From Xanthomonas hydrangeae (GTDB taxonomy: Bacteria; Pseudomonadota; Gammaproteobacteria; Xanthomonadales; Xanthomonadaceae): DNA of 64,000 nucleotides. Position numbers and translations under genes: made by a program. The DNA lies in the NCBI GenBank assembly GCA_905142475.1, contig LR990730.1, forward strand, positions 2,046,001 through 2,110,000. The letters run 5' to 3'. Shown here in pieces: positions 38,564 through 43,142 of the stretch. Positions within the stretch are counted from its first letter, which is position 1, and every line of letters begins with the position of its first letter. The notes under the pieces were generated by a model. That model did no database searches. It saw only the letters and a list, made by a program, of their open reading frames with translations, and was not told the DNA's origin.

Positions 38564-38771
38564 TCCAGCACGCGGTCCCTATCAGCGCGCGCAGCGAATA
38601 GCCGCGCTCGCAACACGGGTAATGACCGACACCACAGTTCTGTTCAAAAAATTCCGCTCGCGTCTGGTTAAAGCTTGCGTTCACCTCGGCCGATAACCCA
38701 GTCTGATCGCTAGCGCGACGTCGGATTCGCCTGGCGCCCGCTGCCGATTGCACTAGGTTTGGGGGGGGCGC

Positions 38772-39461
38772 ATGCGGACGCAATGGTTCAAACGGATAGG
38801 TGTGGGTTCGGTGTTGCTGGCGTACTGCACCGCAAGCGCCGTGGTGGCAACGCCGGTCAGCGTGACCGTGGCCGATGCCAACGGCATGTTGGTCGATGCG
38901 GTGGTCAGTCTGGAGCCGGCGCGTCCGGCGCCACCCAGTGCTTCCAAGACCGCGGAAATGGATCAGGTCAATTCGCAGTTCGTGCCCGCCGTCCTGGCGG
39001 TGCGCACCGGCACCTTGGTGCGCTTTCCGAATAACGATCAGATCCGCCATCAGGTCTATTCCTTTTCGCCTGCCAAGCGTTTCGAATTGCCGCTGTTTCA
39101 GGGTACCAAGGCCACACCGATCCGCTTCGATCAGGCAGGCCTGGTGACGATTGGCTGCAATATCCACGACTGGATGCTTGGCTATATCGTGGTGCTGGAG
39201 ACGCCGTATTTCGGCAAGACCGGCAGCGACGGCCGCGTGCAACTGGATGCACCGGCAGGCACCTACACGCTGCGGGTCTGGCATCCGCGCATCAAGGGCG
39301 CCGTGGTCACCGAGCCGTTGCTGCTTGCGCGCGATGCAGTGCAGCGCCGCGTGACCCTGCAGACCACCGGCGCCGCGCCGATGGCGGCACCACCGGATGA
39401 ACGCGTGCGCGCGCTGCAGGACAAATTCCGTCATGCCGACCCGAAGAAGCCGCATCCATGA
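38772..39461 (+). CDS. Cupredoxin-like 'methylamine utilization' family protein
   Basis: 229 aa with a signal peptide ending VVATP. The 40-140 region looks like a cupredoxin: FPNNDQIRHQVYSFS gives one His ligand and GCNIHDWMLGY gives Cys, His and Met, the set expected for a mononuclear type 1 copper site, though spacing is tighter than in plastocyanin. A carboxypeptidase-regulatory-like sandwich follows (GRVQLDAPAGTYTLRVWHP). The family name comes from annotation habit; no methylamine dehydrogenase is present. First gene of a four-gene operon. Eight consecutive G's (38761-38768) lie just before the ATG. Confidence 0.82.
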   Translation: MRTQWFKRIGVGSVLLAYCTASAVVATPVSVTVADANGMLVDAVVSLEPARPAPPSASKTAEMDQVNSQFVPAVLAVRTGTLVRFPNNDQIRHQVYSFSPAKRFELPLFQGTKATPIRFDQAGLVTIGCNIHDWMLGYIVVLETPYFGKTGSDGRVQLDAPAGTYTLRVWHPRIKGAVVTEPLLLARDAVQRRVTLQTTGAAPMAAPPDERVRALQDKFRHADPKKPHP

Positions 39462-41842
39462 AGGCGATGCGTCTGCATACCCGTATCGCGGCCTTGGTGG
39501 TCCTGGTCGTGCTCGCCACGCAAGTGCTGACCTTCATCGCAGTGCAGGTCGCCACCGAGCGCAGCGTCAAGGCGCAACTCGGCGAAGAGCTGCAGATCGG
39601 CGAACGCGTCTGGGAGCGCATCAATGTGCGCCGCGACGAGCAGCTGATGCAGTCGGCCTCGGTGCTGGCCGACGATTTCGGGTTCCGTGCGGCGGTGGCC
39701 AGTGGCGATGTGCCGACCATGCAATCGGCATTGCGCAACCACGCCGCACGCATGTCGGCGCAGACCGCAGTGCTGTTGTCGCCGGATGGCGAATTTCTGA
39801 CCGGGCTGGCTGATCTGCCGCAAGCCGAACAATTGCGCGCCGTGCAGACCTTGCTGCAACAAGCGCAGCGCGACGGGCGCGCGGTCGGTGTGGTGGCATT
39901 GGATCAGCGCATCGTGCGGCTGGCGGTGGTGCAGGTACTGGCGCCGAGCCGGGTGGGCTGGATCGCGATCGGCAACGAATCCGGCGATGGGCTTGCGCAG
40001 GACTTCCGTACCACCACCGGGCTGGATGCGACCTTCTTCACCGATGGCCCGCCGGTGCGCGTACTGGCCTCCACGTTGGAGCCGGCTGCGCGCGCCGAGT
40101 TCCCGCAGCAGCTGCCCGCCGCCGAAGCGGGGCAGGGTGAAGCGATCCCGCTGACGCTGGCCGACGCGCGTTACCTGGTCAAACTGCAATCGATTCAGGG
40201 CGACAGTCATGTGCGGGTCGCCTTGCAGGCCTCGTTGGATCGCGCAGTCGCACCGTATCGCATCCTTAAATTGCGCATCCTGGCGCTCGCCGGCCTGGCG
40301 ACGGCTGCTGCGCTCGGCGTGGCGATCTTCCTGGCGCGCAGCGTCAGCAAGCCGGTCGCGCAATTGGTGCAGGCGGCACGGCGCATCCAGCGCGGCGATT
40401 ACCACACCGCGGTGCAGGTGCCGCCCGGACGCGAACTGGCCGAGCTGGCCGACAGCTTCGGGCGCATGCAGCAGCAGATCGCCAGCCGCGAGCAGCACAT
40501 CCTGCATCAGGCGCGCCACGATGCCTTGACCGGCCTGCCCAATCGCATCTGGCTGCTGGAGCGGCTGCAACAGGTGGTCGACCAGACCGTGGCCTCGGGT
40601 GGCACGGCCGCCGTGCTGATCCTGGATCTTGAGCGCTTCAAGGAACTCAACGACAGCCTGGGGCACGACTTCGCCGATCAGGTGCTGGTCGAAGCAGGGC
40701 GCCGCCTGGCCGAGGTCGTGCAGGAGCCTAATATGGTCGGGCGGTTGGGCAGCGACGAATTCATGGTGGTGGTGGCGCAGGCCGATATGACCAGCGTGCA
40801 GCAGGATGCGCAGCGATTGCTGCTGCAGCTGCGTCGCCCACTGGCGTTGCCGCAGGCGCGCATCCAGCTGGAAGCCAGTATCGGCATCGCCTTGATCCCC
40901 GAACACGGCGCCGATCCGGATACCTTGCTGCGGCGCGCCGATATCGCACGTCGCCAGGGCGGCAATGTCATCACCATCGGTGCCAGCAGCGTGTACCGCC
41001 TGGGCCAGGACGAGCAGCATCTGCGTCGTCTAAGGCTCACTGGCGATCTGCGCCAGGCGATTGCCAGCAACGAATTGACCTTGCGCTTCCAGCCCAAGAT
41101 CTGTTTGCGTAGCGATCGCGTCGAACAGGTCGAGGTGCTGGTGCGCTGGCATCACCCGGTGCTCGGGCCGATCGGCCCGGACGAGTTCATTCCGCTCGCC
41201 GAGCATTCCGGGGTGATCCACCCGCTGACCCGCTATGTGCTGGACGAAGCGCTGCGGTGCCAGGCGCAGTGGCGCAGCCAGGGCCTGGAGCTGGGCATGG
41301 CGATCAATCTCTCTGCGCTCGATCTGTCCGACCCCGGCCTGCCGGATTATGTGCGCGGTCGTCTGGAGCATCACGCGGTGGCGGCCGAGCGGGTCACGCT
41401 GGAATTGACAGAAAGCGCGTTGATGCGCGATGTCGAATTCGCGCTGCACATGCTGCATCAGCTGCGCAGCGTCGGCGTGCGCCTGTCCATCGACGACTTC
41501 GGCACCGGCTATTCCTCGCTGGCGCAGCTCAAACGCATGCCGGTCAACGAATTGAAGATCGACAAGAGTTTCGTCATGCAATTGGCCGAAGGCACCGACG
41601 ATGCGTTCATCGTGCGCAGCACGATCGATCTGGGGCATAACCTTGGATTGAGCGTGATCGCCGAAGGCGTGGAAAACGCCACGGCGCTCGGGCTGCTGCG
41701 CAGTTATGGCTGCGACATGGTGCAGGGCTATCTATACGCGCCGCCGCTGGAAGAAGTGCCGTTTGTGGCCTGGTGCATGCGTCAACTCGATCTGGGTCAA
41801 CTCGATCTGGTGCCGGCCGCGCAAGCAGGAGCGCAACGATGA
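39458..41842 (+). CDS. Membrane GGDEF/EAL cyclic-di-GMP protein
   Basis: 794 aa. Two membrane helices (about 9-30 and 270-292) flank a periplasmic sensor of the dCACHE type. A HAMP linker (SKPVAQLVQAARRIQRGDY) leads to GGDEF and EAL domains. The cyclase motif reads GSDEF (about 431) instead of GGDEF. The phosphodiesterase motif reads EVL (about 557) in VEVLVRWHHP, but the other key residues remain: NLS, LELTES, DDFGTGYSSL, LKIDKSF, AEGVE and VQGYL. Hydrolysis of cyclic-di-GMP thus seems likelier than synthesis. ATGA overlap with the cupredoxin gene. Confidence 0.93.
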   Translation: MKAMRLHTRIAALVVLVVLATQVLTFIAVQVATERSVKAQLGEELQIGERVWERINVRRDEQLMQSASVLADDFGFRAAVASGDVPTMQSALRNHAARMSAQTAVLLSPDGEFLTGLADLPQAEQLRAVQTLLQQAQRDGRAVGVVALDQRIVRLAVVQVLAPSRVGWIAIGNESGDGLAQDFRTTTGLDATFFTDGPPVRVLASTLEPAARAEFPQQLPAAEAGQGEAIPLTLADARYLVKLQSIQGDSHVRVALQASLDRAVAPYRILKLRILALAGLATAAALGVAIFLARSVSKPVAQLVQAARRIQRGDYHTAVQVPPGRELAELADSFGRMQQQIASREQHILHQARHDALTGLPNRIWLLERLQQVVDQTVASGGTAAVLILDLERFKELNDSLGHDFADQVLVEAGRRLAEVVQEPNMVGRLGSDEFMVVVAQADMTSVQQDAQRLLLQLRRPLALPQARIQLEASIGIALIPEHGADPDTLLRRADIARRQGGNVITIGASSVYRLGQDEQHLRRLRLTGDLRQAIASNELTLRFQPKICLRSDRVEQVEVLVRWHHPVLGPIGPDEFIPLAEHSGVIHPLTRYVLDEALRCQAQWRSQGLELGMAINLSALDLSDPGLPDYVRGRLEHHAVAAERVTLELTESALMRDVEFALHMLHQLRSVGVRLSIDDFGTGYSSLAQLKRMPVNELKIDKSFVMQLAEGTDDAFIVRSTIDLGHNLGLSVIAEGVENATALGLLRSYGCDMVQGYLYAPPLEEVPFVAWCMRQLDLGQLDLVPAAQAGAQR

Positions 41843-42714
41843 GCAAGTGGGTGCGTGCTGCGTGGTCTGCTGCAGTGTTGGGTTGTTTGGCGCTCATGCC
41901 GACACTGGCGATCGCTGCAGAAGGACGTCTGCTCGCCACCGGCGGCGTGTCGATGATCGAAGGCAGTAGTGGCGGCGGCATCGTGCCGTGGGCCACGCTG
42001 TCGGGCTACGGCACGCGCGATGAACTTGCCACCGTCGTGTTCGCCACCCACGTGGACAGCGGCGATTACCGATTGGATGTGCAGGGCGCCGCGCTCACTG
42101 TCGGCAACCGGTTGGAGTTGTCGCTCGCGCGGCAACGCCTGGATCTGGGCACATTGCAGGACCGATTGGGCTTGCCGTGGAATGCGCTGGGTCAGGACGT
42201 GTTCGGCGCAAAGCTGCGCCTGCATGGCGACCTCGTGTACGGGCGCGCGCCGCAAGTCAGTCTGGGCGTGCAATACAAGCGTTTGCGCAATGGCACGCTG
42301 CCCCTGGCAATCGGTGCGCGCGACGACCACGGCACCGATGTGTACGTCAGCGCCAGCCGGCTGTTTCTGCAAGGCGTTGGCGGTTATCAGCTGTTGCTCA
42401 ACGGTACCCTGCGCGCCACCCGCGCCAATCAGACCGGCTTGCTCGGCTTCGGCGGCGATCGTGGCAACAGCTACCGGTTGGTGGGTGAGGCCAGCGCTGC
42501 GGTGATGCTGTCGCCCTCCCTGGCAGTGGGCGTGGAATATCGAGACAAACCGAATAACCTGGGCTTCGCCCGCGAACAGGCCTGGGCAGACGCATTCGTC
42601 GCCTGGTTTCCCAGCAAGCAGGTGTCGTTCACTGCGGCCTGGGCAGAGCTTGGCGACATCGCCACGCTTACCGATCAACGCGGTCCCTATCTTTCCTTGC
42701 AGGTGGCGTTCTGA
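41839..42714 (+). CDS. DUF3034 outer-membrane-like protein
   Basis: 291 aa. Start at MSKWVRAAWS (41839), after GGAGCGCAACG, overlapping the stop of the GGDEF/EAL gene. Signal peptide ends AIAAEG. The mature chain alternates polar and hydrophobic residues and ends in Phe (LSLQVAF), as in small beta-barrels. VSMIEGSSGGGIVPWATLSG is the DUF3034 signature. Function is unknown. As part of this operon it may give a pore or surface link for the sensor. Confidence 0.8.
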   Translation: MSKWVRAAWSAAVLGCLALMPTLAIAAEGRLLATGGVSMIEGSSGGGIVPWATLSGYGTRDELATVVFATHVDSGDYRLDVQGAALTVGNRLELSLARQRLDLGTLQDRLGLPWNALGQDVFGAKLRLHGDLVYGRAPQVSLGVQYKRLRNGTLPLAIGARDDHGTDVYVSASRLFLQGVGGYQLLLNGTLRATRANQTGLLGFGGDRGNSYRLVGEASAAVMLSPSLAVGVEYRDKPNNLGFAREQAWADAFVAWFPSKQVSFTAAWAELGDIATLTDQRGPYLSLQVAF

Positions 42715-43142
42715 TGAACCGATGGCTGCGCTGCTGCCTGCTTTGCGTGCTGGGCCTGGTGAGCGCCTGCGCCACCACGCAACCGCGCCAGACGCTCTAC
42801 GACGAACTCGGCGGGCAAGCCGGGATCGAAGCGCTGGTGGAAACCATGCTCTCGCGCATTGCCGACGATCAACGCATCGTCGATCAGTTCGCGCGGGTCA
42901 ACATCGTCATGCTCAACGAGCGTCTGGTGCAGAAGTTCTGCCACGTCAGCGATGGGCCATGCCCGGATACCGCCAAGTCGATGAAGCAGGCGCATGCGCA
43001 TCTGGCCATCCGCGAAGGCGATTTCAATGCCTTGGTCGAGGATCTGAACTGGGCGATGGATCAGCGCAAGATTCCGCGCCGCACGCAGAATCGCTTGCTC
43101 GCACGACTGGCGGCAATGCACGGCGACATCGTCAATCACTGA
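42714..43142 (+). CDS. Group 1 truncated haemoglobin-like lipoprotein
   Basis: 142 aa. TGATG overlap with the DUF3034 gene. The lipobox LVSAC places Cys near residue 20, so the protein is anchored to a membrane on the periplasmic side. The globin part begins LYDELGGQAGIEALVETMLS, typical of truncated haemoglobins; the helix with AHAHLAIREGDFNALVEDL holds the likely proximal heme His. Lipidation is unusual for a globin. Binding of oxygen or nitric oxide is expected from the family but not shown. Confidence 0.85.
   Translation: MNRWLRCCLLCVLGLVSACATTQPRQTLYDELGGQAGIEALVETMLSRIADDQRIVDQFARVNIVMLNERLVQKFCHVSDGPCPDTAKSMKQAHAHLAIREGDFNALVEDLNWAMDQRKIPRRTQNRLLARLAAMHGDIVNH

Follow-up and report, generated by a model that had tools for sequence, protein, structure and literature searches.

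Background

Two described systems, in which a periplasmic protein acts together with an inner-membrane enzyme of cyclic di-GMP (c-di-GMP) turnover, come closest to the four-gene run treated here, which is situated at positions 38772-43142 of a 64,000-nucleotide stretch of Xanthomonas hydrangeae DNA (contig LR990730.1; this whole stretch is called the window in the following) and encodes a cupredoxin-like protein, a sensor phosphodiesterase, a DUF3034 protein and a truncated globin. In NspS-MbaA of Vibrio cholerae, binding of NspS changes the phosphodiesterase activity of MbaA, the NspS gene lies just upstream, and the motifs of MbaA are SGDEF and EVL (PMC8079147). In YfiBNR of Pseudomonas aeruginosa, one switch is built from a lipoprotein of the outer membrane, a periplasmic protein and a c-di-GMP enzyme of the inner membrane (PMC2837407).

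Concerning NspS-MbaA, the similarity lies in the gene of a periplasmic partner adjoining that of an inner-membrane GGDEF-EAL protein with a periplasmic sensor, and the motifs of the window sensor (GSDEF, EVL) stand beside those of MbaA (SGDEF, EVL). NspS, however, is a polyamine-binding periplasmic protein, whereas the partner in the window is a cupredoxin by its ligands and fold, and the cited account of the pair mentions neither a barrel nor a globin as part of it. YfiBNR is likewise an envelope-spanning c-di-GMP system with a small periplasmic protein and an inner-membrane enzyme; yet YfiN makes c-di-GMP, whereas the window enzyme is predicted to destroy it (EAL intact, GGDEF degenerate), and YfiB is OmpA/Pal-like, a globin being found in the window instead.

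Blue-copper proteins are electron carriers and truncated globins are mostly cytoplasmic, and we know of neither in the control of c-di-GMP; most bacterial GGDEF-EAL receptors have, to our knowledge, no known input. Full-text searches of the open-licence literature returned no description of the four-gene module; the hits comprised a paper on retrons and one on Streptomyces, each mentioning DUF3034 once, a mycobacterial screening paper and two reviews of unrelated subjects. The combination is built of known domains, is well conserved and is apparently undescribed.

Organization of the locus

The four genes follow one another with overlaps of 4, 4 and 1 bases:

38772..39461, + strand: cupredoxin-like gene (open reading frame, copper ligands, AlphaFold and Foldseek)
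39458..41842, + strand: dCache_3-HAMP-GGDEF-EAL gene (open reading frame, Pfam)
41839..42714, + strand: DUF3034 gene (open reading frame, PF11231)
42714..43142, + strand: truncated globin gene (open reading frame, Pfam Bac_globin, lipobox)

The original prediction for this DNA, made from the sequence, had described four overlapping genes with starts at 39458, 41839 and 42714, and the open reading frames, all on the + strand, bear this out. The kinds of protein that it had named (cupredoxin-like protein, membrane GGDEF/EAL protein with a CACHE-type sensor, DUF3034 protein, lipobox globin) agree with the Pfam matches, ligands and models given below. It had further proposed searching for the neighbourhood beyond Xanthomonas, where the arrangement is indeed conserved; overall, the observation is confirmed and stronger than had been stated.

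Conservation of the four-gene cluster

The search covered 398 genomes sampled across the phylum (213 genera) and 14 control genomes. PF11231 is found in 39 of the 398 genomes and 28 of the 213 genera, and in none of the 14 controls; within the family it occurs in 46 of 198 genomes and 16 of 54 genera, including all nine same-genus genomes among those listed. The surroundings were examined for all 39 DUF3034 genomes, one of which (G000) is the window itself. These genomes gave 40 loci, as G078 possesses a broken DUF3034 and globin copy (L040) besides its intact pair; this second copy is excluded from the 39.

All four genes stand together in 30 of the 39 genomes, in three orders. The Xanthomonas order is the most frequent (23 of 30), and at least two of these loci have a further GGDEF-EAL gene ahead of that for the cupredoxin; in six, cupredoxin and phosphodiesterase genes are flipped to the opposite strand, and one locus has the order DUF3034, globin, cupredoxin, phosphodiesterase. 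The nine incomplete loci contain DUF3034 and globin alone (five), with the cupredoxin (three) or with the phosphodiesterase (one); L059 was scored as phosphodiesterase-bearing on a full-length match, though it lies under the sensor threshold given below. Such a second GGDEF-EAL gene ahead of the cupredoxin gene is seen in L041, L042 and L048, and is of the same sensor type in the first two.

Among 39 named loci, 34 possess all four genes, including L090, with a cupredoxin gene truncated at the contig end, and L097, whose phosphodiesterase is split into two open reading frames. The remaining five are L108, cut inside the globin gene, and L101, L104, L105 and L106 with DUF3034 and globin, L105 also bearing a cupredoxin fragment at the contig end. 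DUF3034 is moreover found on 13 plasmid records (Caballeronia 9, Novosphingobium 3, Paraburkholderia 1), and the three examined (two Caballeronia, one Novosphingobium) all hold the four genes. Their annotations read 'DUF3034 family protein', 'group 1 truncated hemoglobin', 'EAL domain-containing protein' and, for the cupredoxin, 'methylamine utilization protein' or 'carboxypeptidase regulatory-like domain-containing protein'.

From the sampled and the plasmid loci it follows that the module spans alpha-, beta- and gammaproteobacteria. A cluster confined to Xanthomonas is ruled out by its occurrence in other genera, classes and plasmids. Had the genes rarely occurred together elsewhere, the original prediction would have been refuted, but they co-occur widely across the 398 genomes.

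Two sub-modules

For profile searches of the same 398 genomes, a protein was counted as present at 150 bits or more (sensor, cupredoxin) or 100 bits or more (globin), thresholds that were set after seeing the gaps in the scores. The globin clade that stands beside DUF3034 occurs in all 39 DUF3034 genomes and in 2 of the 359 others, the next score being 88.9 bits; because of this distribution, the four-gene arrangement exceeds chance, with the reservation that most globins in the profile come from beside DUF3034. The two globins of this clade without DUF3034 are those of G154 (L130) and G328 (L131).

The cupredoxin is found in 38 of the 39 DUF3034 genomes and 12 of the 359 others, the sensor in 37 and 12, respectively. 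Both occur together in 48 of the 398 genomes, compared with two genomes for the cupredoxin alone and one for the sensor alone. The 359 DUF3034-negative genomes, which contributed no rows to the profiles, comprise 11 with both proteins, one with the cupredoxin alone and one with the sensor alone; 8 of these 11 have both genes side by side. A cupredoxin-sensor pair located away from DUF3034 and globin is also present in G389, G225, G261, G213 and G246. Cupredoxin and sensor trees were computed for 46 pairs by maximum likelihood: the two G372 pairs and the second G216 pair fall with the same loci in each tree, the first G216 pair being poorly placed in that of the cupredoxin.

Two sub-modules, DUF3034-globin and cupredoxin-sensor, thus emerge rather than one block. 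The genomic evidence supports the cupredoxin as cognate periplasmic partner of the sensor, because of the co-occurrence without DUF3034, the separate pairs and the matching tree placement, and likewise the globin as cognate partner of DUF3034. Distances among the four proteins at 32 loci are all correlated (0.60-0.77), and none of 2000 permutations reaches any of these values.

Sensor phosphodiesterase

The residue counts in this and the following sections rest on 35 phosphodiesterases and 47 globins, with the window and one or a few Xanthomonadaceae included and the other Xanthomonas left out as redundant; row sets A1, A2 and A3 hold 38, 37 and 29 selected rows, a subset of the loci.

The product of 39458..41842 matches EAL (240 bits), GGDEF (128 bits), HAMP (50.6 bits) and dCache_3 (43 bits, cut-off 25.7). 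By sequence prediction it is an inner-membrane protein whose dCache domain is periplasmic, between membrane segments. Eight sites, which we take to be the catalytic and metal-binding residues of EAL domains, are intact in 35 of 35 relatives at each site. The GGDEF motif reads GSDEF in the window protein, which departs from the GG(D/E)EF of active diguanylate cyclases, and is intact in only 11 of the 35. Because the EAL residues are invariant while the GGDEF motif is mostly degenerate, the likely output is c-di-GMP breakdown. In the periplasmic part, the motif D73-F-G-F76...A79...T87..S90...R98 is kept in 33-35 of the 35. Together with the wide co-occurrence of the genes and the metal sites kept in the neighbouring proteins, this lends good support to a c-di-GMP phosphodiesterase that faces the envelope and has copper and heme partners; of the envelope sensor that had originally been proposed, this part stands, whereas the single block gives way to two sub-modules.

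Cupredoxin-like protein

The window protein carries an export signal and consists of a cupredoxin domain, a second beta-sandwich and a C-terminal helix. Its type-1 copper ligands H93, C129, H132 and M135 are invariant in 37 of 37 rows, and likewise in the 16 rows of alignment A5. Cupredoxin_1 of Pfam scores 16.1 bits, below its cut-off of 27, and the amicyanin equivalog TIGR02657 19 bits, far under the curated cut-off of 110.2. In the AlphaFold model (mean predicted local distance difference test, pLDDT, 81.5), the first PDB matches by Foldseek are amicyanin and pseudoazurin. The protein thus carries a type-1 ligand set on a modelled cupredoxin fold, and copper binding is predicted. With amicyanin and pseudoazurin it shares the fold and the ligand pattern H...C-x2-H-x2-M; it differs from them in the additional beta-sandwich domain, in a class-specific tail and in a gene partner that is a signalling enzyme rather than a dehydrogenase. 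RefSeq names its homologues 'methylamine utilization protein' or 'carboxypeptidase regulatory-like'.

DUF3034 protein and truncated globin

The DUF3034 protein matches PF11231 at 371.5 bits (cut-off 25), possesses a signal peptide and a C-terminal Phe, and is 97% identical to its closest named relative, from X. hortorum. Its AlphaFold model (mean pLDDT 68.6, predicted template modelling score 0.72) forms a barrel with some 12 strands, for which FapF and a COG4313 channel are the top PDB folds, with OmpG and NanC lower; in the FapF and COG4313 rows, template modelling scores by query length are 0.41-0.50 and identity is 8-14%. A predicted barrel is thereby shared with these outer-membrane channels, whereas the low identity sets DUF3034 apart. 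A PDB sequence search with DUF3034 gave a chance match only, and NCBIfam names neither DUF3034 nor the globin. An outer-membrane location is likely from the model; the fold matches do not settle the type of channel.

The globin matches Bac_globin at 47.3 bits (cut-off 21) and carries a signal peptide with the lipobox VSAC. The lipid anchor that had been predicted holds for the window globin but is not general: a pattern search finds a lipobox in 23 of the 39 sample globins and inspection by eye in about 26, and most of the remainder have what looks like an ordinary signal peptide or a start that is unclear. The F8 proximal His (H94 in the window) is present in 46 of 46 rows, one further row being cut by a contig end, and the CD1 Phe (F59) in 47 of 47; by domain and by these two residues, the protein is a group-1-like truncated hemoglobin. 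The best PDB sequence matches are 2gl3, a distal-pocket variant of Mycobacterium tuberculosis HbN (44.5 bits), and 1idr (42.6 bits).

F8 His and CD1 Phe are thus shared with HbN. The window globin and its relatives differ in being exported and often lipid-anchored, in a Cys pair (C76 and C83 in the window; conserved in 46 of 46 and 44 of 46 rows), which would fit a periplasmic disulfide, and in the distal pocket. This is apolar (L46, L67, L71 in the window), and in the rows aligned to HbN apolar residues stand at B10 in 46 of 47, at E7 in 47 of 47 and at E11 in 46 of 46; distal hydrogen bonding of the HbN type (B10 Tyr, E11 Gln) is absent from these rows. By analogy with NO-selective heme sensors, such a pocket would disfavour stable O2 binding and leave nitric oxide (NO) or carbon monoxide.

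Loss of heme in the globin was rejected in view of the invariant proximal His, and an inactive EAL domain in view of the catalytic residues intact in 35 of 35. A globin without heme site beside an inactive EAL domain, which would have told against the original prediction, therefore finds no support in the sequences, F8 His, CD1 Phe and the EAL site all being kept.

Partners away from DUF3034

A frequent third gene away from DUF3034 encodes a protein of 403-447 residues with outer-membrane-like sequence (12 homologues and one weaker), for which Pfam gives at best a sub-threshold barrel match in the two members scanned. In L110, L118, L123 and L125-L128, cupredoxin, a sensor phosphodiesterase of the same type and this barrel-like protein constitute a second system; some homologues adjoin the cupredoxin gene without the sensor, e.g., in L109, L115, L116, L119 and L122. 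In G021, from another class (L141:1721-6329), the gene of a cupredoxin stands in a row with those of a CCP_MauG di-heme peroxidase and of a hybrid histidine kinase, and the periplasmic part of the kinase matches the sensor profile more weakly, at 101-105 bits. The combination of copper protein, heme protein and sensor is repeated there.

The cupredoxin tails differ between the classes. In the window the compared part is:

39400-39458, + strand: tail of the DUF3034-linked cupredoxin, contrasted with unlinked tails

A Tyr in the last four residues is found in 18 of 23 cupredoxins unlinked to DUF3034 (e.g., in L123 and L125-L128) versus 0 of 36 linked ones, a count in which hypothesis and test are drawn from the same data. 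The C-terminal helix of the linked cupredoxins matches a loose pattern in 18 of 36, which is not decisive. Class-specific tails might serve to dock the cupredoxins to different barrels.

Upstream element

Before the cupredoxin gene of the window, a tentative promoter element is situated:

38669..38696, + strand: sigma-28 (FliA)-like element TAAAGCTT...GCCGATAA, 77 bases before the cupredoxin start

The element resembles the E. coli sigma-28 consensus as well as an element situated, in this genome, between the flagellin gene and fliD; it is the sole match in the window, and 0 of 100 shuffles contain one. TAAAGC-N14-GCCGATA is found in 29 of 32 Xanthomonas loci, the boxes being required by the pattern; one of the three misses, L090, starts inside the cupredoxin gene. 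In 26 of these 29 loci, 53-77 bases separate the end of the element from the cupredoxin start, the called start being unclear in L072, L095 and L102. Outside Xanthomonas it was not found before the module, save three poor matches (L054, L105, L110). It counts against a promoter that the exact pattern occurs twice genome-wide, as does the reversed control, and that the spacer is 16 bases long, compared with 15 in the element near fliD. Genome scans with two mismatches are at control level as well (87+74 versus 91+87; 109+75 versus 95+111). Since exact and loose genome-wide counts equal the controls, and only position and conservation argue for the element, a sigma-28-like promoter is suggestive only; if real, it would connect the flagellar regulon with the phosphodiesterase. 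A promoter scan of the locus gave no sigma-70-like site and a terminator scan a single terminator-like site, inside the DUF3034 gene, neither result being above shuffles.

A putative envelope signalling module

With moderate confidence, the four genes are read as one envelope-spanning signalling module, in which the cupredoxin would act on the sensor phosphodiesterase, c-di-GMP breakdown being the output, and barrel and globin would be the redox or gas front end. The DUF3034 barrel would admit or anchor; the heme of the globin would bind a diatomic ligand, NO being likelier than O2 because the distal pocket is without hydrogen-bond donor; the globin may then exchange electrons with the cupredoxin or shift its redox state; and docking of the cupredoxin on the dCache domain may depend on the state of its copper and switch the phosphodiesterase, in the manner of NspS acting on MbaA. 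A lowered c-di-GMP level would favour motility, and a sigma-28-like promoter at the Xanthomonas loci would be consistent with this. As originally supposed, we infer that the sensor receives a gas or redox signal by way of heme and copper. As a tentative further step, a heme-to-copper relay is conceivable, in which an exported, NO-favouring globin at the barrel controls the redox state of the blue-copper protein, itself a protein ligand of the dCache phosphodiesterase, such that gas or redox conditions outside the cell would set cytoplasmic c-di-GMP; cupredoxin and sensor would be the interchangeable core, with heme partners and barrels varying.

Several observations weigh against this reading. 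The profiles were built largely from the same DUF3034 loci that were being counted, and the globin profile mostly from DUF3034-adjacent globins. Partial correlations of the distances are 0.41 for globin-sensor, 0.40 for globin-DUF3034 and 0.32 for both cupredoxin-sensor and DUF3034-sensor, such that the cupredoxin-sensor pair is not singled out; the lowest, 0.09 for globin-cupredoxin, speaks against direct contact of these two. Neither cupredoxin nor sensor passes the threshold anywhere in the G078 genome, and G019 has no sensor; together with the incomplete loci (five of 39 with DUF3034 and globin only, three more without sensor gene), this indicates that DUF3034-globin can exist without the switch. 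Furthermore, no His, Cys or Met is invariant in the periplasmic sensor domain, the best being His95 in 23 of 35, and the model hence hangs on an unproven protein contact.

Part of this would agree with a copper-status switch, in which the cupredoxin reports periplasmic copper loading to the phosphodiesterase and DUF3034-globin is a separate function sharing the operon. Such a switch would account for the 11 genomes with cupredoxin and sensor but without DUF3034, for the second pairs elsewhere, for the invariant copper ligands and for the value of 0.09; yet the presence of both proteins in 37 of the 39 DUF3034-globin genomes, and of all four genes together in 30, in several orders, is hard to reconcile with unrelated functions, and we consider it unlikely. 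Somewhat less probable again is a handling of NO or oxidants in the periplasm, with chemistry at the globin, the cupredoxin as electron donor or acceptor, the barrel as pore and a phosphodiesterase that reads the cupredoxin as a by-product. Heme and copper proteins do recur together, also as CCP_MauG and cupredoxin in G021, and the F8 His is conserved; however, B10 Tyr and E11 Gln, which in HbN stabilise O2 for NO dioxygenation, are missing from the distal pocket, and there is no reductase among the four genes.

FapF as top fold match of DUF3034 would suit an export of a surface polymer or amyloid-like protein through DUF3034, timed by the phosphodiesterase and with globin and cupredoxin as accessory maturation proteins, but the fold matches are generic for barrels of this size and the model has a pLDDT of only 68.6. 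Of the three annotated records, one has a filamentous-hemagglutinin-type gene (L153:12637-12876, on a Caballeronia plasmid) that starts some 2.4 kb downstream of the module, with two response-regulator genes in between, whereas a substrate gene was not recognised in the other two; we regard surface export as improbable. Adjacency through shared housekeeping regulation alone, without functional unit, would be in line with the five loci of DUF3034 and globin only, but conservation across classes in rearranged orders, plasmids included, makes it very improbable indeed.

For the module as preferred here, the persistence of the four genes in very different bacteria points to an undescribed route from outside conditions to a lifestyle decision. 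By gene partnership, it offers candidate inputs, namely a truncated globin located in the envelope and, for a dCache receptor, a blue-copper protein as signalling partner, and DUF3034 gains a likely place, the outer membrane, and likely partners. Control of c-di-GMP by copper or NO, perhaps with biofilm dispersal, would be predicted for several proteobacterial classes.

A lone sensor phosphodiesterase is found in G375 (L143) and G015 (L144), next to genes that by eye resemble glmM, tpiA and secG, a neighbourhood that is also that of the Xanthomonas window.

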